In this document: positions 1-18,884 of the stretch, one piece after another
Layout of the letters: each line of letters opens with the position of its first letter
Position numbering within the stretch: the first letter of the stretch is position 1
NCBI GenBank assembly: GCA_018661505.1
Contig: JABJIE010000026.1
Coordinates: 1-64,000, forward strand
DNA from: Lentimicrobiaceae bacterium
GTDB taxonomy: Bacteria; Bacteroidota; Bacteroidia; Bacteroidales; F082
Direction: 5' to 3'
Length of the DNA: 64,000 nucleotides
Position numbers and translations under genes: made by a program
Notes under the pieces: model-generated
Told to the model about the DNA's origin: nothing
What the model saw: the letters and a program-made list of their open reading frames with translations, nothing else
Databases searched by the model: none

Positions 1-3000
1 ACCTTCTGCAGTTACGCTTACTCCTCCCATGCCAAGACCAGTGTTACAATCTGTAACCTGTCCAAAAATTGAACCTGGTACATAAACATGCATTGTGTTA
101 AATACACTATCAGATAATCTAGCTGGGTCATTGGTCTCAATGTTAAGCCACTCATCATATGATCCTGCTGGGAATCCAGCTGAACTATAAGTAACCATTA
201 CATCCAATGTACCTCCTGCTGGGATTTGTCCAGCTGCTGGTTCTACATCTACTATGTAACTTGGCTGTGGACATGTTCCATAAACAACTCCAACTGGTAA
301 ACTTACGTTACCCGCTGAATAGATTACGTTACCATCTCCATCTAAAAAGTCATAAGAACACTCATATGACCAACCACCTGGTGTAAAAACAGTACTAATA
401 TCATCACCAGTCTCTGCAGGGAATCCAAAACATTCAGGACCACTACCACTTGCCAATGTAATGTTATCTAATACAATGTTGCCATTTACAAATACACTAA
501 GGGTACCGCCATTCCAGCCGTCTCCAAAGGAATCCATTAAACAAACCTCCATTGTACATGAAAAACCTTTACCTGATACATAATCAGGGAAGGTAAAATC
601 TAACATACCATCACCACAGTTCTCTAGTGTAAGCATTACATCTTCCTCTACATCTGGCCATTGCCAGTTTTCTAAAGCAGTAGGTGTCCAACATAAAGCA
701 GGAATCAACCAATCAATACACTCAGGACCTGCTGGTGTTCCGTTTCCTTCTTGGTAAACAGGAGTTACTGTGTAACAATAAGTACCAAATGTAGGTGCAA
801 AATCTGTATATAGAGTAGTTGTTGATGTTCCAACTGTTATACCATCTCTCTTAATTGCAAAATACTGGAAAGTTGGGTTTGTAGAAGAAAACTGCCAGCT
901 TAAATCAACCTGACCAGTTACCATATTAACCAAATTAGCTTCCAGATCTGTTGCTGGATCCAATGGATCTCCAAATATAGTCATTGTTACAGGTATGTTG
1001 AATGTTCCAACATCAGGATCTGTTGTCATAACAATCTCTGCTGTATAAACATCACCTGCCTCTGTGCCTGCGGCATCAAAGTTAACTCCTACATTTTGGC
1101 TACCACCACTAGCAGCAACTGTTCCATCATAATCACTCAAGCTTAACCATCCTGATATACCACCACCATGTAAACACATAGCCAATCCTGCTGGAAGAGC
1201 TCCTGTGCCTTGTAAGGCTGGGTAAGAAGGTGTTGCATAAGTATTTAACCAATAGAATGTTGGTGAACCACCTGCTGTGGCTTGAACGGTAATCCATCCA
1301 TCTACCAATGATGATGATGGAATTTCTATTGTATAAGAATATGTATCATAACCAATAACCTGAACACCTGTGTTTACAGGATCAGCTAAAGCTATTGTTG
1401 TACTTTCTAGTGTTCCTGGTGAACCACCTGGGCCATAAACCTCAACTAGGAATTCACGCTGTCCCGATGGGGCACTGGTGTGTATTGCATAAGCTGTAAC
1501 CTTTGTAAAGGCACCAGTTGCACCTGAGAAACTTTGGAAACACTGCCAACCAGCGGTTGCATCTGATGTATATCCGTTATCTGAACCAACTGCAGGATAT
1601 GCAAATTTGGTACCATCAGGACAATCAAATCCTGCTCTAGTGTTCATGGCCTGACCATTACCTCCAGGTATAGTATTTAGATTTGCTCCTGTTAAGTCAA
1701 TATTAGTCCAGTCATAGCTATTTGCAGGTACAGGATTAGAACCACCAGCACTTGAAGAAGATGGGTAGTTAATTACTGCACTCCAGTCACCATCACCATC
1801 ACCTGTGTTAAGTATTCCCAAATAGGTTGTTAAATACTCTCCAGGGTTTAATGTTTCATCAAAAAATAGTGGATTGATGGTTAAACTAGGCTTAGTTAAT
1901 GTAAAGTTATGTAATGTTGTACCTGATGGTGTAATATAAATATTATCAGTAGTTACATTATAACCATCTTTCCAAGCACTTACATCTTGCCATTCGCCGG
2001 CAACTTGTAATAGTGAATAAGCTCCGGTTGGATCTGTTGTAACAGATGGATAACCATCCATCCATACTGTAGCTCCAGCTATGGATAAACCATCACCGTT
2101 CATTACATAACCTTCAACATCACCTATGGTAAGGTAAGATAACTCAAAGTTATCAAGATATGCTATATCACCCTCATTATAGTAATTTGCATAATATTTG
2201 TTAGATGTTTGCAGTGTAAGGGTAAAGGTAGAACCCTGATAAGCACTTAAATCAAATTCAAGCATTCCAAAATCATCATTATGAGTTGATGGCTGCCAAT
2301 AATAGTCGCCATTAGAATCATACAATGGGTTACCATTAACTAATGTACGGAACCATGAATAGTTAGGATTAAAAGAATATCCTTGCATTAAGTCAAAATA
2401 CATCATTAAATTACCTGCTGAACCATCTGGAACAACTGTAATATCAATCGTAGCAAAATGCGCTGATTTACTTGAAGCAAATGCTTGTGTGTAAGAGTAA
2501 GGAGTTGATCCCCACCCTGTAGAAGTATTACCTTCATAAAGAGCACCATAAGTGCTACCACTACCGGCATCACTGCTAACAAATAGACCTGCACCAGAAC
2601 CCATACTAGTAATAAATTCTCCTGGGAAACTACCACTTTCAAAGTCAGCGTAGTAAGGGAAAGTATCAACTTGTTGAGGCTCTACACCATCTCCAGCAAC
2701 AAAGGGATATGATCCGTATGAAGTATAACTATTTGAGCTCCATGATGTGATAGGCCAGCCTGTATCACTATTTGATACGTCGCCCGCAATACCACCGTCG
2801 CCATATGAGTCAAAACAATCAACATCATAAGAACTTCCTTCTGTTAGTGCTAAATAGTGTATTACTATTTCTCCGCCATAACTAAATGTTTGGTCAGAGG
2901 CCCAAATATAAGAACCCGCATCATAATCCCAAACATTGTAAGAAGCTTCAGATGCCCAACTGTCAACTTGAACTTCTAATTTTATATTACTAACTGCTCT

Positions 3001-3207
3001 GTTGCCTTTATTAGGTGCTACATATGTAAGACCTTTGGCTTTGAGTTTAGTTAAAGGAATTGTCATAGACTGAGCATTTGGATTAGCCCTTCTTTGGGTC
3101 ATCATCTGCTCTTCCTCAATTGAGATTGCATTAGAGGCAGACTGGCCTACTAATGCCGTTGATGATAGGAATATCATCATAATAATAAAACTTGTAATTT
3201 TTCTCAT
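1..3207 (-). CDS. Very large secreted multidomain protein, C-terminus beyond the window
   Basis: The frame stays open from an ATG at 3207 to the window edge (1069 codons), so the C-terminus is missing. The N-terminus is a signal peptide (MRKITSFIIMMIFLSSTALVGQ). Visible parts are a DSYGDGG motif near residue 130, a jellyroll-like region around 190-350, a carboxypeptidase-regulatory-like domain at about 360-430 (GDVEGYVMNGDGLSIAGATV), a repeat-rich beta region, a fibronectin-III-like segment near 750 (ATDLEANLVNMVTGQVDLSW), a Cys-rich DSFGDGWNGG module near 890 and the start of a second carboxypeptidase-regulatory-like domain at the edge. This architecture is typical of T9SS-exported Bacteroidota surface proteins. 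I infer a C-terminal sorting domain, but it cannot be seen. It lies downstream of the sigma/FecR/STN/beta-helix genes on the same strand, after a 426-bp gap. No catalytic motif was recognised; an adhesin or a peptidase partner are both possible. Confidence 0.85.
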   Translation of the reverse strand, partial: MRKITSFIIMMIFLSSTALVGQSASNAISIEEEQMMTQRRANPNAQSMTIPLTKLKAKGLTYVAPNKGNRAVSNIKLEVQVDSWASEASYNVWDYDAGSYIWASDQTFSYGGEIVIHYLALTEGSSYDVDCFDSYGDGGIAGDVSNSDTGWPITSWSSNSYTSYGSYPFVAGDGVEPQQVDTFPYYADFESGSFPGEFITSMGSGAGLFVSSDAGSGSTYGALYEGNTSTGWGSTPYSYTQAFASSKSAHFATIDITVVPDGSAGNLMMYFDLMQGYSFNPNYSWFRTLVNGNPLYDSNGDYYWQPSTHNDDFGMLEFDLSAYQGSTFTLTLQTSNKYYANYYNEGDIAYLDNFELSYLTIGDVEGYVMNGDGLSIAGATVWMDGYPSVTTDPTGAYSLLQVAGEWQDVSAWKDGYNVTTDNIYITPSGTTLHNFTLTKPSLTINPLFFDETLNPGEYLTTYLGILNTGDGDGDWSAVINYPSSSSAGGSNPVPANSYDWTNIDLTGANLNTIPGGNGQAMNTRAGFDCPDGTKFAYPAVGSDNGYTSDATAGWQCFQSFSGATGAFTKVTAYAIHTSAPSGQREFLVEVYGPGGSPGTLESTTIALADPVNTGVQVIGYDTYSYTIEIPSSSLVDGWITVQATAGGSPTFYWLNTYATPSYPALQGTGALPAGLAMCLHGGGISGWLSLSDYDGTVAASGGSQNVGVNFDAAGTEAGDVYTAEIVMTTDPDVGTFNIPVTMTIFGDPLDPATDLEANLVNMVTGQVDLSWQFSSTNPTFQYFAIKRDGITVGTSTTTLYTDFAPTFGTYCYTVTPVYQEGNGTPAGPECIDWLIPALCWTPTALENWQWPDVEEDVMLTLENCGDGMLDFTFPDYVSGKGFSCTMEVCLMDSFGDGWNGGTLSVFVNGNIVLDNITLASGSGPECFGFPAETGDDISTVFTPGGWSYECSYDFLDGDGNVIYSAGNVSLPVGVVYGTCPQPSYIVDVEPAAGQIPAGGTLDVMVTYSSAGFPAGSYDEWLNIETNDPARLSDSVFNTMHVYVPGSIFGQVTDCNTGLGMGGVSVTAEG

Positions 3208-3633
3208 ACACAAAACGTTTTAATTTAATTAATTAATAATAACAATCTATTTTTATATTTTTAAGAAAACTCTGCATTGAAAAATTCACATCAATGGACG
3301 TGAAATGTATTTTTGGAAAGAAACTAAGCTTGTTTTGAATAGTTAGTTCACTTGTCTGAAAAATGAGTAGATTTTTAGTCAATAGTTCTTAAACTTTTGT
3401 TTATAATATAAAAGACAATTTAAAGGTCTGTTACCCCTACTCCAATCAGGCTTTTTTACAAAAATAATTTCTTTGGAATTGATATGATAAAAGTTTCTTT
3501 GGAATTCCAAATAAACATCTATACTATTAATAGATTAATAGGTAATAAGTTAGAGGATTTTTTAAAATTATTGTTGGTCTAGAATTGCATTATAATAAAA
3601 TGAAAAATATTTTAAAAAAATAAATTTTGACAA
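3208..3633. other. 426-bp intergenic region, no gene
   Basis: This AT-rich stretch lies upstream of the large secreted protein and downstream of the beta-helix gene. No open frame of note is present. It contains a direct repeat and a perfect palindrome (listed separately). It also has a TATTTTTG element on the minus strand (3459-3466), which resembles a Bacteroidota -7 box but has no TTTG partner at the right spacing. The gap is long enough for the large gene to have its own regulated promoter. Confidence 0.5.
3468..3511. promoter_or_regulatory. Direct repeat and palindrome, possible operator
   Basis: TTTCTTTGGAATT occurs at 3468-3480 and again at 3494-3506, 26 bp apart. The second copy runs into a perfect 14-bp palindrome, TTTGGAATTCCAAA, at 3498-3511. 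The pair sits about 260-300 bp upstream of the large secreted protein. Two copies of a half-site element spaced by 26 bp suggest a protein-binding site, but no regulator can be assigned. Confidence 0.35.
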
Positions 3634-6600
3634 TCATCTTTCCCTAATTACGAAAGAAAATGAATTAATGAATGAGCCTGATTTAATATTACCAAAATAT
3701 AATCCCGATGGAAGTAATTCCACCTGAATTGAAACAACTCCATTTTGATTATAATAATTGCCAAGTTTATTTGTCATTTCCACTCCATTATAATTAAAGA
3801 TTCTGATTAAATAATCATCATCGGGTTTTAAAAAACTTATAACCTTAATAATATTTGATGCAGGGTTTGGATATACATCCAAGCTACCTGCTAATTGATT
3901 ATTGAATGAATTGGGAACGACTCCTATATTATTATTGGTTATCTCAATTTTAACCCCTGAAATATTTGGGTTATTTGGAGAGGTTGTTATAATAGGTGAT
4001 GATATTGGAAAATATCCAGCTTTCTCTGCATCAATAATATATTTTCCATAGGGTAAGTCATTGAAGTAAAAATTGCCAAGCTCATCAGTTAATGTATAAT
4101 TTAATAGTTTTGAGTGGGTTTGATCAAATAAAAATACTGTGAGGTTGGATAACCCACCAATGCAATATTCCATGTTACTACCTGTCAACCATGGTTGACA
4201 ATACAATTCACCGTTTACATTCGATTTCTCAGGCATCACCATGTTTCCTGATATTGTTGCCTCACCGTCAGGCAATACATAATCAACAGCAGAAAGAAAT
4301 ATATCTAGATCATATACATTTGCATCTACATTAATTAAATGGGCATATTCCCAGTGTCGTTTATGAGCATAATATCCAGGAACAAGGTTCTCATCATTAT
4401 TCGTATCTGGCAATGCATAAACATAGTACCCTCCTCTCATTACCTTTGGAAACCTATAACCACCGTCATCTTCTGATGTTTCAATTAACAATGCTCGGGT
4501 ACTACTATTATCTTTTCTGTATGCAACTACTGTTCCTTTATATATTGCATTATTGGATGTCCATAACCTACCTTCAACAGAATAATATGGTTCTATTTGA
4601 ATCATAATTGAATCCATTGTTGCTCCACAATCAGAATAAACATTCATTTCAAGAATTACAAAACCAGCTGCAATATCAGTATTGCCTGGAATATAAATAG
4701 GGTTTATTAATGTTTCGTTAACAAAATATCCATCTCCCTGAGTATCCCATTTTATTTCACTAAAATTAGATGCATGTGCTTCTATTAAGTATACTGAAGT
4801 ATCAGCAACTACAATTGTGTCGTTGCCTGCAAATGCAATGGGTTCATCAGCCATTCTTAACATAAAGCTATCCGAAATTGTATCTGTAACAGTTATAACA
4901 TTTAATGTAATTAGTGCACCTCCGGCATCAATATCCTCCTCACCTGGGGTATATATTGGAAATATGTACTCATAACTGTCAAATTTACCATCACCATTTG
5001 TCGTCCAAAAAAGAGATTCATAATCAAAAGGTATGGACCCCCTGTCAAAATGTATGGAGTTCACATATTTGCATACAAGAGTATCATCACCCGCAAACGG
5101 ATATAAGCTTGCAAAAGCATAAGGACTTTCATTGCCATTAAGTTGAGATGTATGATTGTAAATGGTCGTATCATGAGAGGTAACGGCAATTATATCATAT
5201 ATGGATATATCTCCGGAAACACTTACTGATGTATCTTTTCCAATATCTTCATATGATGCAAATTCGTAATCCTTATAATTTCCATAATACAAATAGTAGT
5301 TGTTTAAGTCAGTCTCTAGGTTTGGCACCCACGAAACTCTGACAATGTTGTCAACCAATTGCTTAATTACTTTGTAAGGAGGAGATATTGGATTTCGATT
5401 GTTAATGCTATCTAGATAGGGTTTAAATACAACATCTCCAACATCAGGATTATCATTCCGATCATAAATCAGTTTACTAATTTTAGATTCTAAATCTGTC
5501 CCCCAATAATTGCCAGGAATAGCTATGTTATTGGGAGTATTATTTATCACAATGTAATTTCCCCCAGAGTTATTAACCAAATTATTAGTTTCAATGTTTA
5601 AACCGGAAGTTTCCTTGATGGATATGGTTTCCTGAATATTTTCAGAGAATGTATTATTTAAAATATTATTGCCCACAGAACCACTACCTACTGCAAGTGC
5701 CCATCTATTTTTATAAAAGCTATTATTTAATATCCCGCAGTATCTTCCTCTTTCTGCAGTATAAATAGCTGTATTATTATTCCAAAATATGTTGTTTGAT
5801 ACTATTATTGAATCATGGGCTAAAAATAAACCAAATCCGATATCACCACCGTTGTTAATTATTATATTTTTCGTTATACTATTTCCATAATTAATTGTAT
5901 TTCCACCATTATCAATCCATATTCCATTATTTCCTTGGGAGATTTTATTATTATTCAGCTGGTTATTTACATACTTACCATTTTGCTCCACGAAAATATT
6001 AATGTTATGATTTTCGTTTTTTAGAAATGAATTAGTAACTATATTATTTGCCGTAAGACCTCCATCTCCGGTATAAATTTCTATTCCATTATAATTATTC
6101 TTTATGGTACAGTTTACAATGTAACAGAAACTACTGTTTGTTATATTTATTCCAACATTCTGACTCCCAGTAATAGAAGTATTTTCTACCTGTACATTTA
6201 TCGAGTTTTCAATCATAATGGCAGTTTCTGCATTAACTACCTTTAAGTACTGTAGGATGCTGGGATTTTCGTAATCAGAGTTTTTTATCTGTAACCCATT
6301 CCATTTCCATATTTGACCTGGTTCAGTGTAGTTCGAAAGGAAATAAACAGAATCTACCTGATCACCAATTGCGTATAAAGAACCATTATCTACTATAATA
6401 TTTCTGCCAAAATTAATTTTGACAACAGTTCCAGGTCTTATTGTCAATGACTTATTCTTTGGTATTATAAGATTCTGTACTACAACATACGTAGTATCTT
6501 CATAGAAAATTCTATCATTCTCTATTACCCCTCCAACATTAACTACCTGTGCTTTAGTACTTATTGATACTATGAATAAACTTGCCAAAATAAAATGGGA

Positions 6601-6657
6601 AATTGAGCTATTTAACAGCTTGATTATTTTTAATGCTATTGATAAGTTTATTGGCAT
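3634..6657 (-). CDS. Secreted right-handed beta-helix protein with T9SS type A sorting domain
   Basis: This 1007-residue protein opens with a signal peptide that has a long n-region and ends near STKAQ (about residue 37). Residues of roughly 60-390 are rich in Asn and short repeats of the NosD/pectate-lyase-like parallel beta-helix type (for example NNGIWIDNGGNTINYG). A fibronectin-like stretch and Ig-like segments follow (AFAGNDTIVVAD). A carboxypeptidase-regulatory-like domain comes next, near 830-900 (LTDELGNFYFNDLPYGKYI). The last 80 residues begin LDVYPNPASNIIKV, the usual start of a T9SS type A C-terminal signal. It is therefore expected to cross the outer membrane through the type IX system and stay at or leave the surface. 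It starts 22 bp after the STN-barrel gene, so the two are probably co-transcribed. No catalytic residues for a polysaccharide lyase are evident; an adhesin or glycan-binding role is possible. Confidence 0.85.
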   Translation of the reverse strand: MPINLSIALKIIKLLNSSISHFILASLFIVSISTKAQVVNVGGVIENDRIFYEDTTYVVVQNLIIPKNKSLTIRPGTVVKINFGRNIIVDNGSLYAIGDQVDSVYFLSNYTEPGQIWKWNGLQIKNSDYENPSILQYLKVVNAETAIMIENSINVQVENTSITGSQNVGINITNSSFCYIVNCTIKNNYNGIEIYTGDGGLTANNIVTNSFLKNENHNINIFVEQNGKYVNNQLNNNKISQGNNGIWIDNGGNTINYGNSITKNIIINNGGDIGFGLFLAHDSIIVSNNIFWNNNTAIYTAERGRYCGILNNSFYKNRWALAVGSGSVGNNILNNTFSENIQETISIKETSGLNIETNNLVNNSGGNYIVINNTPNNIAIPGNYWGTDLESKISKLIYDRNDNPDVGDVVFKPYLDSINNRNPISPPYKVIKQLVDNIVRVSWVPNLETDLNNYYLYYGNYKDYEFASYEDIGKDTSVSVSGDISIYDIIAVTSHDTTIYNHTSQLNGNESPYAFASLYPFAGDDTLVCKYVNSIHFDRGSIPFDYESLFWTTNGDGKFDSYEYIFPIYTPGEEDIDAGGALITLNVITVTDTISDSFMLRMADEPIAFAGNDTIVVADTSVYLIEAHASNFSEIKWDTQGDGYFVNETLINPIYIPGNTDIAAGFVILEMNVYSDCGATMDSIMIQIEPYYSVEGRLWTSNNAIYKGTVVAYRKDNSSTRALLIETSEDDGGYRFPKVMRGGYYVYALPDTNNDENLVPGYYAHKRHWEYAHLINVDANVYDLDIFLSAVDYVLPDGEATISGNMVMPEKSNVNGELYCQPWLTGSNMEYCIGGLSNLTVFLFDQTHSKLLNYTLTDELGNFYFNDLPYGKYIIDAEKAGYFPISSPIITTSPNNPNISGVKIEITNNNIGVVPNSFNNQLAGSLDVYPNPASNIIKVISFLKPDDDYLIRIFNYNGVEMTNKLGNYYNQNGVVSIQVELLPSGLYFGNIKSGSFINSFSFVIRER

Positions 6658-6679
6658 TTGTATTGAGTAGAACTGGTTA

Positions 6680-7984
6680 CTAGAAATAATATATTAGGCC
6701 AAATTTTAAACCAAGCCCATTTATTTTTGTTGACTGAGGATAATCCTTAACAATATCATCCATGTATCTTAAATAGTAAGCCTCTCCATTAAAATCGAAT
6801 TCTTCAGCTAATTTATATTTTAATCCTATACCGGCAATAAATGAAAATGATTGCTGATTAAATTTTAAGTCCGCAAAGTCGACTCCCTCAGACTGCTCTG
6901 GATAAGGAATTGCAAGTCCTTCTCTATAGATCAATACACCAAATTGACCCCCGGCTCGAATATAATATCTTGCTTTATCCGTTTTAACAAAATCATAGGT
7001 AACTGAAAGAGATAATTCTAATAGACCAATTCTATTATTTATGTTATAATCATAATCATGAATGTTTAATGGATTCCATGTTGAATCAGTAACATAGAAA
7101 TATGCAGTATCGCCCATATCAATAGTGTAATATTCATCTATGGTATCTGTTGAATAAAAGCCCCCTTCTTGGTCAGAGTATGTATGATTAAACTTTTCAT
7201 CAAAGTTTGTTAATTTTATTCCCCCTTTTATCATCCAATTTCTATAAATTTTGGATACCTCAGCACCCAAGGAATAGCTTCTCACTGTATATTGTTTATC
7301 ATTGCGTACAAGTGAAAAATTTGAAACTATTGGTGCAATGAAAAGATCTGCTGACCATCCACTCTCTCTCTTTGGTACCTGATTAAAATAATCAGAATAT
7401 ACTTCCTTATTTCTTGTGTTTTGAGTTGTATCCTGCGTCTGTTTTTCAATGAATATGGAATCGGTTATAATAATAGTGTCCTTTTGGATTTCTATTAAAG
7501 TATCTGTCAGAAAAATTGTATCGTAAATCAATTTGGGTATATACTTTGTTACTGTAATTGTTGATTCGTTGTTTATATTTTCTTTTTTTTCAGTTTTTTT
7601 GGTTTTATTTTCATTTTTTAAAATTACCACTTGGTTACCAATCATTTTGAAACCATATTCTGTATCATTCAAAATTTCATCAAGTATTATTAAGGGGTTC
7701 TTGTCATGGGCGGAATAGGTAATTTTTTTTGAAAAAACTGCCTCATCTGAATTGTAGGAAAAATTAATATTTGTTTTATCAGAAATGATAATTAAAACTG
7801 TTGATAGCTTTGCTTCACTAACATTTATGTCCATGGTTTCACCTTCCAACGATTGTGCAAAAACTGGTTGCTGATTTGGTAGAAATATGGCTAATAATAA
7901 AAATGTAATAGATAATATATACATCAATCCTGGTCTAGGATTAACACTTTCATGATTATCATCTTTGATTAAAAGGGTTTTCAT
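6680..7984 (-). CDS. STN-domain outer membrane protein with small C-terminal beta-barrel
   Basis: This 434-residue protein has a hydrophobic signal segment (residues about 21-44, ending VFAQS). An STN domain follows at about 50-123 (TMDINVSEAKLSTVLIIISD, then YGFKMIGNQVVIL). Then comes a Thr/Asp-rich linker with repeated DT motifs (124-205). The final 225 residues have alternating hydrophobic strands and a C-terminal Phe, as in small outer membrane beta-barrels. In classical FecA-type receptors the STN domain contacts the FecR anti-sigma factor in the periplasm. Here no TonB plug or 22-strand barrel follows it. The gene lies between fecR (127 bp upstream) and the beta-helix cargo gene (22 bp downstream). 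I infer that it is the outer membrane sensor for this sigma/FecR pair. The barrel assignment rests on pattern only. A start at Met21 is also possible. Confidence 0.75.
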   Translation of the reverse strand: MKTLLIKDDNHESVNPRPGLMYILSITFLLLAIFLPNQQPVFAQSLEGETMDINVSEAKLSTVLIIISDKTNINFSYNSDEAVFSKKITYSAHDKNPLIILDEILNDTEYGFKMIGNQVVILKNENKTKKTEKKENINNESTITVTKYIPKLIYDTIFLTDTLIEIQKDTIIITDSIFIEKQTQDTTQNTRNKEVYSDYFNQVPKRESGWSADLFIAPIVSNFSLVRNDKQYTVRSYSLGAEVSKIYRNWMIKGGIKLTNFDEKFNHTYSDQEGGFYSTDTIDEYYTIDMGDTAYFYVTDSTWNPLNIHDYDYNINNRIGLLELSLSVTYDFVKTDKARYYIRAGGQFGVLIYREGLAIPYPEQSEGVDFADLKFNQQSFSFIAGIGLKYKLAEEFDFNGEAYYLRYMDDIVKDYPQSTKINGLGLKFGLIYYF

Positions 7985-8111
7985 CAGTTAGTATGAAAGC
8001 TTATAATTTCTTAGAATGCTAAATTACAAAAAAAAAATCTGGATAGTTTTCGTGAAAATTTTATCGGAAGGAATTAGCATCAGTCATCAGGAAGATGAGA
8101 AAAGATAAATG

Positions 8112-9116
8112 CTATTTTTTTATTGTTACATTATTTCCATCAATAACATAGTCAAGGCTATAAATAACTTTGATGGACTGCAAAATATTTTCAGGTGTTT
8201 CATTTTGATAACGAGCTGTGAGATGGTAATTTTCGAGGTTTAACTTGCTCGTAACATTTAAATGATATGTATTCTCAATTGTATTAATTACATCATTAAG
8301 TGGAGCATTAATGAAATTGAGAGTACCTGTTTTCCAAGCTAGGTGGTTATTATCTGAAAAATTGAACTTTGAAATACTGCCGTCTATTTTATTGTAAACA
8401 CCCTTTTCACCTGGTAATAGAATTACTTGTTCAAGTATGCTATTACTTTCGTTATCAACTGAGTAAAACAATACCTTTCCAGTCTCAAGAAAAATCGTTA
8501 TTTCATCTGAATCGGTTTTGTTAGTAAGGTTAAAGGAAGTGCCTAAAACTTTAACTCTAATATTTCCTGTCTCTATTAGAAATGGTTGATTAGGATCATG
8601 TGCTATGTCAAAATATGCTTCTCCAGTAAATTCAATCCTTCGTGTATTTAATAAAAAGTGATCAGGATGAATTATTTCAGATTCTACATTTAGGAAAGAT
8701 TTTGATCCATCGGGCAAAATGTACGAGCTTCCTGTGGAAAATGATGATTCTGTTATAAGCACATCATTTACTTTATTTTGAGTCGGAATAACAACCCAAA
8801 GTGAAATGATAAGAGCTATAAAAGCTGCAATTCCTGAAGAAACAATGAAAAATGTTTCAATGGTCGATCTTTTTGAAATTTTAATATCATCACCAAGGTT
8901 TAATCTAGATTTTAAATTCTCCCACTTGGCATCCAAATCAACAGGTTCAGAACAAGAATTTGATATTGACACCTCCCAAATTTGCTTGAACTCTTTGAAT
9001 AGGGCCTTGTTTTCATGGGATAAATTAATCCATGCCTCAACATCTCTTATTTCATTTTCAGGTAAGTTTCCTGAAACATATGCAACTAAGCGTTGTATGT
9101 CAATTTCTTTGTTCAT
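8112..9116 (-). CDS. FecR family anti-sigma factor with DUF4974 domain
   Basis: The protein begins MNKEIDIQRLVAYVSGNLPE, a typical FecR N-terminus for holding a sigma factor in the cytoplasm. One membrane helix follows at about residues 88-111 (FFIVSSGIAAFIALIISLWV). The periplasmic part has a FecR domain (about 125-215, including GEAYFDIAHDPNQPFLIETG) and a C-terminal DUF4974 domain (about 265-334, LNFINAPLNDVINTIENTYH). The family transmits a signal from an STN-bearing outer membrane protein to the sigma factor. An in-frame ATG at 9164 would add 16 residues; I chose 9116 because family members start there. The gene lies 182 bp after the sigma gene and upstream of the STN-barrel gene. A TATTTTTG element at 9224-9231 (minus strand) could give it a second promoter. 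Confidence 0.88.
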   Translation of the reverse strand: MNKEIDIQRLVAYVSGNLPENEIRDVEAWINLSHENKALFKEFKQIWEVSISNSCSEPVDLDAKWENLKSRLNLGDDIKISKRSTIETFFIVSSGIAAFIALIISLWVVIPTQNKVNDVLITESSFSTGSSYILPDGSKSFLNVESEIIHPDHFLLNTRRIEFTGEAYFDIAHDPNQPFLIETGNIRVKVLGTSFNLTNKTDSDEITIFLETGKVLFYSVDNESNSILEQVILLPGEKGVYNKIDGSISKFNFSDNNHLAWKTGTLNFINAPLNDVINTIENTYHLNVTSKLNLENYHLTARYQNETPENILQSIKVIYSLDYVIDGNNVTIKK

Positions 9117-9298
9117 CCTTAAATCCAATAAAGATCCTTTGTAATAAGACAGTCGGCAATACATTTACCCCTATTCCCAATTATGTTTAATTTAAACTTT
9201 TTTCTTGGAATACCCAACGATCACAAAAATACTGACATACAAAAGGTTAGGGAGAATGAATATTGTAGTTTCGTGAAGTTACATAAAATTAAACTGCC

Positions 9299-9883
9299 TT
9301 AGAATGAATCTTTCAATAATAGAAATGTTAAAATCAATGTTGGCATGTGGTCTTTAAGAACTATTCTTAAATATTTTAATGCCTTGGTCATTTGGTTTTC
9401 AACCGTTTTGACTGATATTGATAAATGTTTGGCAATATTTTTATATTTCATTCCTTCAAACCTACTTAGCTCAAATATTTCTCGTCTTTTTTCAGGAAGT
9501 TCTAAAATTGCCCTCATGATTATTTGACGTACTTCAATGTTTTCCAGGGTTTTGTGTGGATCAGTAAACGTAATATTAATATCTTTGTTCTGTGATATAA
9601 CATACTTGTTTAAAATTTTGCGTCTGTTGAGATGATTTAAAGCACTATTTTGAACTGCTCTGTGAAGGTAGGAGCTTAAAGAGCTTGTTATTTTTATCTC
9701 AGAATGCTTTTCCCACAATTTTACAAAAACTCCCTGAACTATCTCTTCTGCCTCGTCAATATTTTCAACATATCTTATACAAAAGTAGAGAAGGGGAGTA
9801 TAATTATTACGATATAATTCCTCAAAAACGGATTTATTACCATTTCTCAAATCGGAAATAATATCTTTAGATCTTCTGCCCAT
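9299..9883 (-). CDS. ECF RNA polymerase sigma-70 factor
   Basis: This 194-residue protein has an ECF sigma region 2 (about 10-80, FEELYRNNYTPLLYFCIRYV and EAEEIVQGVFVKLWEKHSEI) and region 4 (about 125-175, ELPEKRREIFELSRFEGMKY, then NIAKHLSISVKTVENQMTKA). There is no region 3, as expected for the group. It matches the Bacteroidota sigma family whose members are controlled by FecR anti-sigma factors, and a fecR gene follows on the same strand. The gene has a clear house-type promoter (9948-9978), so its own transcription is probably driven by the main sigma factor. Control would then act on the protein through FecR. Targets cannot be read here, but the two linked T9SS-type secreted proteins are the obvious candidates. 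Confidence 0.92.
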   Translation of the reverse strand: MGRRSKDIISDLRNGNKSVFEELYRNNYTPLLYFCIRYVENIDEAEEIVQGVFVKLWEKHSEIKITSSLSSYLHRAVQNSALNHLNRRKILNKYVISQNKDINITFTDPHKTLENIEVRQIIMRAILELPEKRREIFELSRFEGMKYKNIAKHLSISVKTVENQMTKALKYLRIVLKDHMPTLILTFLLLKDSF

Positions 9884-9947
9884 TTTTTAAATTATTCCTA
9901 ATTATACTTGGGTTTGTAAAATTGGTTCTATTTTGAAGTAAAAAAAA

Positions 9948-9978
9948 CAAAAGTAATTAATATTTAATTTAATCCAAA
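9948..9978 (-). promoter_or_regulatory. Bacteroidota-type promoter of the sigma gene
   Basis: On the minus strand, TTTG (9978-9975) is followed after exactly 19 bases by TACTTTTG (9955-9948). This matches the TTTG-N19-TAnnTTTG consensus of the primary Bacteroidota sigma factor. It would start transcription about 55-60 bases before the sigma gene ATG at 9883. Confidence 0.75.
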
Positions 9979-18467: not shown

Positions 18468-18554
18468 TTATGTGAGTCTTATAACTTGTATAATTGTCTT
18501 TAATTCTTATATTTGAAGATATTACCTTGGTGTTTATTTTTAAATCGTAATATC

Positions 18555-18884
18555 ATGAAATTTCTACTGCCAATAATAATATTAGCTTCCTTACATAGTT
18601 ATTCACAAAATATATTTACTGTTGAATATGAATCTCAATCGGATATTAATGTATTTGTTGTTGAATATGAAGCGCAATGCGATTTAAAAGTGTTTAAAGT
18701 TGAGTATGAGTCACAAGTAAAAGGTAATGAAGGGTTATGGTTTTTTGTTGAATATGAATCTCAATCAGATAAGAAAATTTACTTTGTGGAATATGCCTCT
18801 CAGTCTGACCTTAAAATATTTTTTGTGGATTATAAATCACAAGCCGGCTGGAAAACAAATAAAAAGAAGTATCTAATGTATTAG
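18555..18884 (+). CDS. Small exported six-repeat protein resembling the 7(1) septoil knot (DUF6150) family
   Basis: I start this at the ATG at 18555, giving 109 residues with a clean signal peptide (MKFLLPIIILASLHSYSQ); an upstream in-frame TTG would precede the signal peptide. The mature part is six near-regular repeats around VEYESQSDLKVF: TVEYESQSD, VVEYEAQCD, KVEYESQVK, FVEYESQSD, FVEYASQSD and FVDYKSQAG. The third carries a short insert (KGNEGLW). The pattern of EY-x-x-Q every 13 or so residues, ending in QAGWK, matches what I recall of DUF6150, whose structure is a 7(1) knot. Function is unknown. It stands between nhaC and the convergent phoH gene. The repeat pattern is seen; the family call is from memory. 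Confidence 0.72.
   Translation: MKFLLPIIILASLHSYSQNIFTVEYESQSDINVFVVEYEAQCDLKVFKVEYESQVKGNEGLWFFVEYESQSDKKIYFVEYASQSDLKIFFVDYKSQAGWKTNKKKYLMY

Follow-up and report, generated by a model that had tools for sequence, protein, structure and literature searches.

We identified, at the start of a 64,000-base window of a Lentimicrobiaceae bacterium genome (the first 64,000 bases of the 156,357-base contig JABJIE010000026.1; genome of 2.46 Mb, 95.7% complete), a gene cassette that probably encodes a TonB-independent trans-envelope signalling circuit, one that would sense a partner protein and have exported proteins as its output. The cassette lies on the minus strand in the order extracytoplasmic function (ECF) sigma factor gene, fecR, a gene for a plug-less STN protein with a small barrel, a gene for a beta-helix protein with a type IX secretion system (T9SS) tail, and the start of a giant gene. 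Its features, by position in the window, are the following.

9948..9955, minus strand: TACTTTTG, fitting TAnnTTTG, upstream of the sigma gene
9299..9883, minus strand: ECF sigma factor gene, FecI-like Bacteroidota type, 194 amino acids (aa); TIGR02985, Sigma70_r2 and r4_2 above cut-off
9146..9170, minus strand: promoter-like motif GGGTAAATGTATTGCCGACTGTCTT, upstream of fecR
8112..9116, minus strand: fecR-like anti-sigma gene; PF04773 and PF16344 above cut-off
6680..7984, minus strand: predicted STN, DT-repeat tether and small outer-membrane barrel protein, 434 aa, without plug
7610..7852, minus strand: STN region of that protein, residues 45-125; family matches to STN and FecR_C
7439..7534, minus strand: tether with repeated D-T/D-S steps, residues 151-182
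6683..7360, minus strand: barrel region, residues 209-434, read as 8 strands
7040..7186, minus strand: most conserved loop of the barrel, residues 267-315, with a DT-D-YY-DT-DS motif, candidate contact site
3634..6657, minus strand: predicted beta-helix T9SS cargo gene, 1007 aa, conserved partner of the barrel gene
3913..4587, minus strand: transthyretin-like / CarboxypepD_reg module, residues 691-915 of the beta-helix protein
3637..3894, minus strand: T9SS C-terminal domain region, residues 922-1007 of the beta-helix protein
3412..3436, minus strand: promoter-like motif GGGTAACAGACCTTTAAATTGTCTT, upstream of the giant gene
1..3207, minus strand: giant secreted-protein gene, 5' part, ATG at 3207 (listed TTG at 3213), contig end at 1

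The original prediction had named the first four of these genes within 3634-9978, and all of them were present there on the minus strand, with the sigma factor, FecR and T9SS tail assignments above curated cut-offs. The sigma factor scored 165.6 bits against TIGR02985 (NCBIfam cut-off 126.4), and the FecR protein exceeded the Pfam cut-offs for both PF04773 (45.2 bits) and PF16344 (46.9 bits), giving the FecI-like ECF sigma factor with an adjacent FecR that marks FecIRA-type signalling. The list of open reading frames (ORFs) opens fecR at 9164, and its true start is probably the ATG at 9116 because the FecR of a close relative aligns from residue 17. The beta-helix protein matched Beta_helix (49.4 bits) and Por_Secre_tail (30.9 bits, residues 928-995), both above cut-off, the tail match also being above cut-off in a genome-wide scan (3673-3876), and 30 of 30 aligned orthologues matched both models at E<=0.01. 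It carries the C-terminal sorting domain of T9SS cargo, and the same genome encodes type IX machinery (SprA_N, E 3.5e-162; 92 Por_Secre_tail matches); we predict that the protein is a T9SS cargo that is secreted and loses its tail by cleavage.

The gene between fecR and the beta-helix gene encodes the candidate sensor. In Pfam, the window protein matched STN (E 0.03), OMP_b-brl (E 0.0015), and OMP_b-brl_2 (E 0.0033), all weakly and under cut-off, and because of this the assignment is firm only at the level of the family: among 35 aligned members, including the window protein, 21 matched STN, 13 OMP_b-brl_2, and 12 OMP_b-brl at E<=0.01, with FecR_C matches in 11. These family-wide matches uphold the earlier description of an STN protein ending in a small beta-barrel. 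Against the PDB, the family profile gave notable matches on the STN side only, to PilQ N-domain chains (E 0.00087-0.072) and to the PupA signalling domain (2a02, E 0.34), and a plain sequence search with the window protein gave no match at E<=10. All 35 members carry 4-7 D[TS] steps in the linker. Read by eye from the alignment, the barrel appears to have 8 strands, with the strand limits of the loop likewise set by eye, and 11 of the 30 positions conserved at >=90% fall in the 49 loop residues 267-315. AlphaFold2 models built from two sequences (window and L032) had mean pLDDT (predicted local distance difference test) values of 27.1 (whole protein) and 33.7 (barrel region), a low confidence at which they carry no weight; the strands of the second model, of the barrel region, roughly agree with the reading by eye at that same low confidence.

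In textbook accounts, FecR signalling begins with a TonB-dependent receptor. Pfam gave no Plug or TonB receptor match in the 434-aa protein, and domain searches of the cassette genes bore out the earlier observation that the cassette holds no such receptor. An ordinary ferric-citrate type system, with its TonB transducer elsewhere in the genome and the STN-barrel protein as an accessory, would suit a sigma factor and FecR of the FecI/FecR kind, and 22 Plug matches were found in the genome. The window's own FecR, however, was the only FecR match in the whole genome, and no STN match was found in any frame at E<=0.001, a search that the weak STN of the window protein also escapes, so that a degenerate STN could too. 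Further, in the loci examined it is the STN-barrel gene, not a TonB receptor, that comes after fecR. The case that the original prediction had named as its refutation, an STN-bearing TonB receptor next to a different sigma/fecR pair, was looked for genome-wide and not found, and since there is a single FecR and no STN match at E<=0.001 despite the 22 Plug matches, the genome appears to hold no matching TonB transducer. We rejected a hidden transducer on these grounds; with the genome at 95.7% complete such a receptor could be missing from it, and we regard the ferric-citrate explanation as highly improbable.

The cassette is conserved as a unit. Matches to the STN-barrel protein were identified in 89 of 173 genomes of the family, with the protein of a Lentimicrobiaceae relative in the same genus group being 78% identical to that of the window, and among 41 family loci the barrel gene had a sigma gene as a neighbour in 39 and FecR in 40. 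We counted 83 barrel places and 85 beta-helix places at >=385 bits, omitting weaker and partial rows; 79 of the 85 strong beta-helix orthologues lay directly behind the barrel gene on the same strand (median gap, 20 bases), and the 2 genes occurred together in 81 genomes, with 1 genome each having only one of them. The same block was found in 5 other Bacteroidales families (f6, f14, f43, f49, and f119; loci L102-L113), including 2 loci (L108 and L109) whose FecR is present in an open frame beyond the list of the ORF caller and 1 (L113) whose partner is shorter and weaker. At a further locus (L052), the sigma gene was not found on the right strand. An order-level search shows the reach of the cassette within Bacteroidales, matching 301 of 393 genomes at E<=0.001, most of the listed rows being STN-only or barrel-only and the figure not a count of cassettes. 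In a phylum-wide sample of 395 genomes, with four candidates per genome scored, only the window genome matched at E<=1e-25.

Searches with the barrel and other cassette profiles identified further Bacteroidales loci in which the sigma gene is followed by a single protein of 455-574 aa, in which a short cytoplasmic-looking N-terminal stretch is followed by a single hydrophobic helix, a tether that is long and of low complexity, and a barrel (helix and tether read by eye). This order matches that given for the Dma2 anti-sigma factor (PMC13088901, excerpt), and in 3 loci (L116, L127, and L128) the fused design is split into two genes. Alignment with hhalign of 12 fused and 35 cassette proteins joined the tether end and barrel over 267 columns (probability 99.95%, E 1.8e-38, 25% identity), the comparison being with 12 Dma-like fused proteins of Bacteroidales. 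In a sigma tree omitting two near-copy loci (L069 and L071), the sigma factors beside fused or split proteins all fell on one side (16/16; support 100/100, bootstrap not fully settled), with the window sigma outside the clade of fused-type sigmas (100/100); the same barrel therefore serves two sigma lineages. A barrel tree of 54 of the 73 barrel sequences put the cassette barrels on one side in 32 of 33 cases (95/86) and, with modest support, a second STN-barrel group (L117, L118, L125, and L126) among the fused-type barrels, and because of that position STN may have been grafted onto the barrel more than once. The original prediction is partly supported, in its outer-membrane sensor, FecR, and exported proteins as output, but its sensor of a new type is not wholly new, the tether and barrel being homologous to those of the fused proteins of Dma order. 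It is best read as a FecR/STN variant of a Dma-like trans-envelope sensor that would join two known kinds.

The four loci of the second STN-barrel group have a FecR-STN-barrel arrangement (429-447 aa, DT-repeat tethers) followed by genes of 825-839 aa, and three of these four genes showed weak matches (15-19 bits) to the transthyretin-like module of the beta-helix partner. The window genome also has, on contig 66 (12705-16133; L144:4706-8134), a sigma gene, a 467-aa barrel protein whose N-terminal stretch is anti-sigma-like, and a PKD protein of 523 aa that carries a T9SS tail and the module, and so encodes a fused, Dma-like system as well.

We then compared what is encoded behind the barrel in the two designs. 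The gene directly behind it encoded a T9SS tail at 44 of 47 cassette loci and at 10 of 14 loci of the fused type, compared with 4 of 240 control genes; because the cassette's own partners supplied the tail profile, the 44/47 is partly circular, and the Pfam model agrees in 30 of 30. Within three genes of the barrel, a tail was found in 13 of 14 fused-type loci compared with 12 of 240 controls. A profile of beta-helix residues 691-915, a transthyretin-like pair, matched 62 of 858 ORFs, each of the 62 being the first or second gene after a barrel or STN-barrel gene. Within three genes, this module was identified for 48 of 54 cassette barrels (contig ends cut five of the six misses) and for 9 of 17 fused-type barrels. 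A reverse search gave, among the matches listed, three family proteins that match the partner profile only C-terminally, and all three lay directly behind a sigma gene and a barrel-like gene (the barrel match of L165 is weak, 12 bits). Because the module is shared behind two anti-sigma designs, the partner is suggested to be the thing that the barrel touches. More tentatively, and as a possibility short of probable, the FecR/STN and the fused Dma-like systems may be two builds of one barrel sensor whose ligand is the transthyretin-like module of a co-encoded T9SS protein, in which case the circuit would measure the arrival or loss of the partner at the surface and set the expression of surface cargo by it.

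The barrel could instead read an external ligand, such as a polysaccharide or an ion, directly via its loop, the beta-helix and giant proteins (adhesins, for example, or proteins that handle polysaccharides) being a mere response. In classical FecR systems, it is at the receptor that a ligand is read (PMC9249621, excerpt), the Dma2 authors suppose a glycan input (PMC13088901), and the loop with its 11 positions conserved at >=90% would offer a reading site. A sensor of this sort would, however, have no need for the same partner module behind two anti-sigma designs, a point on which gene order alone cannot decide, and we consider direct reading of an external ligand rather doubtful.

The output side of the partner-sensing circuit rests on a promoter-like motif first noticed by reading the gaps behind the beta-helix gene, namely TA(G/A)GGGTAAA with GTC(T/A)T following 14 bases after GGGTAA. 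The window holds two occurrences (9146-9170 and 3412-3436), compared with 0.06 expected from shuffles, and the exact form GGGTAA-N14-GTCWT has three matches in the whole 2.46 Mb genome, two of them in the cassette and the third, probably a chance match, at C43:147781-147805 (+). The third match (L160) is without a T before GTCTT, a base present in 43 of 49 cassette motifs. Across loci, 24 of the 49 gaps between sigma gene and fecR had the strict motif, as did 19 of the 42 behind the beta-helix gene, and it was found in none of 51 fecR-barrel gaps, 51 barrel-partner gaps, or 379 other same-strand gaps. A leave-one-locus-out profile exceeded the 1% level of 308 control gaps, a set that also omits neighbours of fused-type genes, in 46 of 49 sigma-fecR gaps and 27 of 42 gaps behind the beta-helix gene; four of the control gaps scored 1.6 to 9.8. 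The profile found no motif in the other cassette gaps (0/51 and 0/51) or in the two gaps of fused-type loci (0/15 and 0/15).

We infer from this distribution that the motif is the promoter of the cassette's sigma factor, with fecR, barrel, and partner genes forming one unit and the giant gene a second. The earlier proposal that the freed sigma factor drives the exported proteins gains support from the conserved motif before fecR and before the giant gene. The sigma gene itself stands outside the motif-controlled units: the strict motif was present in 1 of 48 regions upstream of it, with no ECF-type motif in the other 47, and autoregulation was not supported. The upstream sequence TACTTTTG fits TAnnTTTG, the consensus of the housekeeping -7 element of Bacteroidota. 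The giant gene starts about 200 bases past the motif (3208-3411 in between), and leaders that are long and A+T-rich are seen repeatedly in relatives.

The size of the predicted regulon also bears on a further explanation, that of an envelope sentinel which monitors the assembly of barrels, tension in the outer membrane, or how far apart the two membranes are, and answers with a surface coat of exported proteins. The tether and barrel are homologous to fused trans-envelope proteins, and B. thetaiotaomicron makes more vesicles when Dma1 or Dma2 is lost (PMC13088901, excerpt). Folding, protease, and lipid genes would be expected in the regulon of such a sentinel, whereas the motif occurs outside the cassette once in the genome (exact form only), and we judge this explanation unlikely.

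The very large secreted protein of the original prediction is real, with 1071 aa visible in the window up to the contig end. In relatives outside genus g11, we identified seven complete giant genes of 2268-2762 aa behind or next to the beta-helix gene (L148-L152, L156, and L158, the last with a 452-aa gene intervening), and the counterparts in two g11 genomes encode 974 and 1018 aa; all nine have a T9SS-tail match. Pfam searches of three long giant proteins found the tail in all three, together with CarboxypepD_reg, fn3, or Cleaved_Adhesin domains, and the giant protein looks like a surface adhesin as far as its domains tell. At one locus (L151:669-14618, genome G329), the cassette is followed by a tandem pair of giant T9SS proteins (2268 and 2271 aa), which suggests a duplicated output gene.

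Taken as a partner-sensing circuit, the cassette might work as follows. A housekeeping promoter would make a little ECF sigma factor, which FecR would hold at the inner membrane. The STN domain of the barrel protein would cross the periplasm on its DT-repeat tether to reach the STN-like C-terminus of FecR, and the large conserved loop of the barrel would contact the cell surface, most likely the transthyretin-like module of the partner next to its anchor end. In Pseudomonas, STN domains bring the anti-sigma factor and the receptor together, and the signalling domain of the receptor shields the anti-sigma factor from proteolysis before the signal (PMC11637429, excerpt); carried over to the cassette, STN would keep FecR stable until a signal comes. 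Arrival or loss of the partner, or ligand binding, would pull or turn the STN domain, and FecR would be re-shaped or else cut, the cutting possibly being done by the single M50 protease (one M50 site-2-protease match was found in the genome), freeing the sigma factor. From one promoter, the freed sigma factor would renew FecR, barrel, and beta-helix partner and so reset the switch; from the other, it would make the giant exported protein. A precedent for a T9SS-tail protein acting upstream of a sigma factor is PorA of Porphyromonas gingivalis (PMC7712824, excerpt). The role of the motif as the promoter of this sigma factor, the STN-FecR contact, the partner as signal, and the direction in which binding acts are all inferred.

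Several observations weigh against this reading. In the window protein, the STN match is under cut-off (E 0.03), and its structure models are not usable (pLDDT 27 and 34). One locus (L045) has the barrel and partner with no sigma or FecR adjoining, and another (L063) has the block without the partner. The reversed control pattern of the motif likewise has three matches in the genome. Behind the beta-helix gene, 15 of 42 gaps are under the profile threshold; five of them are 0-10 base pairs long, and there the following gene may belong to the same operon. The training motifs of the profile came from the same gaps, and leave-one-out keeps near relatives in the training set. After thinning at 60% FecR identity, the core pattern is found in 19 of 33 loci and a looser pattern, which is without a measured chance rate, in 29 of 33. 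No partner module was found near 8 of the 17 barrels of the fused type (for 4 of these 8, fewer than two following genes are visible), and the loci of the 858-ORF search were picked around barrels. Finally, the beta-helix and giant proteins may be outputs only.

If this circuit operates as proposed, a FecR served by a small plug-less barrel would be another input to FecR signalling, tied to the recently described Dma family, and its two motif sites would make for a small predicted regulon, open to test in a single experiment. The sensed substrate is an open question for the Dma2 authors (PMC13088901), for which the co-encoded module is a concrete candidate, and the cassette offers a testable case of what such barrel sensors feel. 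Among the papers listed in our literature searches, none dealt with a plug-less STN barrel coupled to FecR or with T9SS partners at Dma loci; PMC12045153 touches both subjects and has the Dma paper in its reference list. Elsewhere in the window (18513-18884, plus strand), a 123-aa protein of repeated VEYESQ-SD units matched DUF6150 at 70.7 bits (cut-off 27).

Among known systems, the cassette resembles FecI-FecR-FecA in having a FecI-like sigma factor, a FecR with an STN-like C-terminus, and a candidate STN-bearing outer-membrane protein. It differs in that the 434-aa protein lacks the plug and the large TonB-dependent barrel of a FecIRA transducer, no TonB receptor is present in the unit, and the neighbours are T9SS cargo. 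PorA-PorXY-SigP shares with it a surface T9SS-tail protein upstream of an ECF sigma factor, and its authors expect other mediating factors (PMC7712824); that system is however a two-component one that controls the secretion machine, and its description, in the excerpt of the same source, is without a FecR/STN-barrel. Closer in gene order are the 'STN and carboxypeptidase-regulatory' proteins of seven loci (L119, L120, L129, and L133-L136), which have a sigma-FecR-STN order without plug and 514-534 aa and represent a further plug-less output of FecR loci. Unlike the cassette protein, these have CarboxypepD_reg after STN (2/2 scanned) and do not match the barrel profile; most are not followed by a T9SS partner, with a weak tail match in 1 of 7 (L119). 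With the Dma anti-sigma factors, the cassette shares a sigma gene beside a protein with a tether and C-terminal barrel (Dma order from PMC13088901, excerpt). An adjacent sigma factor of the ECF21 group is a further mark of the Dma kind; the window sigma falls outside the clade of sigmas next to fused proteins (100/100). Dma places the anti-sigma domain, helix, disordered tether, and barrel on a single polypeptide, whereas the cassette protein consists of signal peptide, STN, tether, and barrel, with the anti-sigma domain and inner-membrane helix in a separate FecR and the STN domain as the link.

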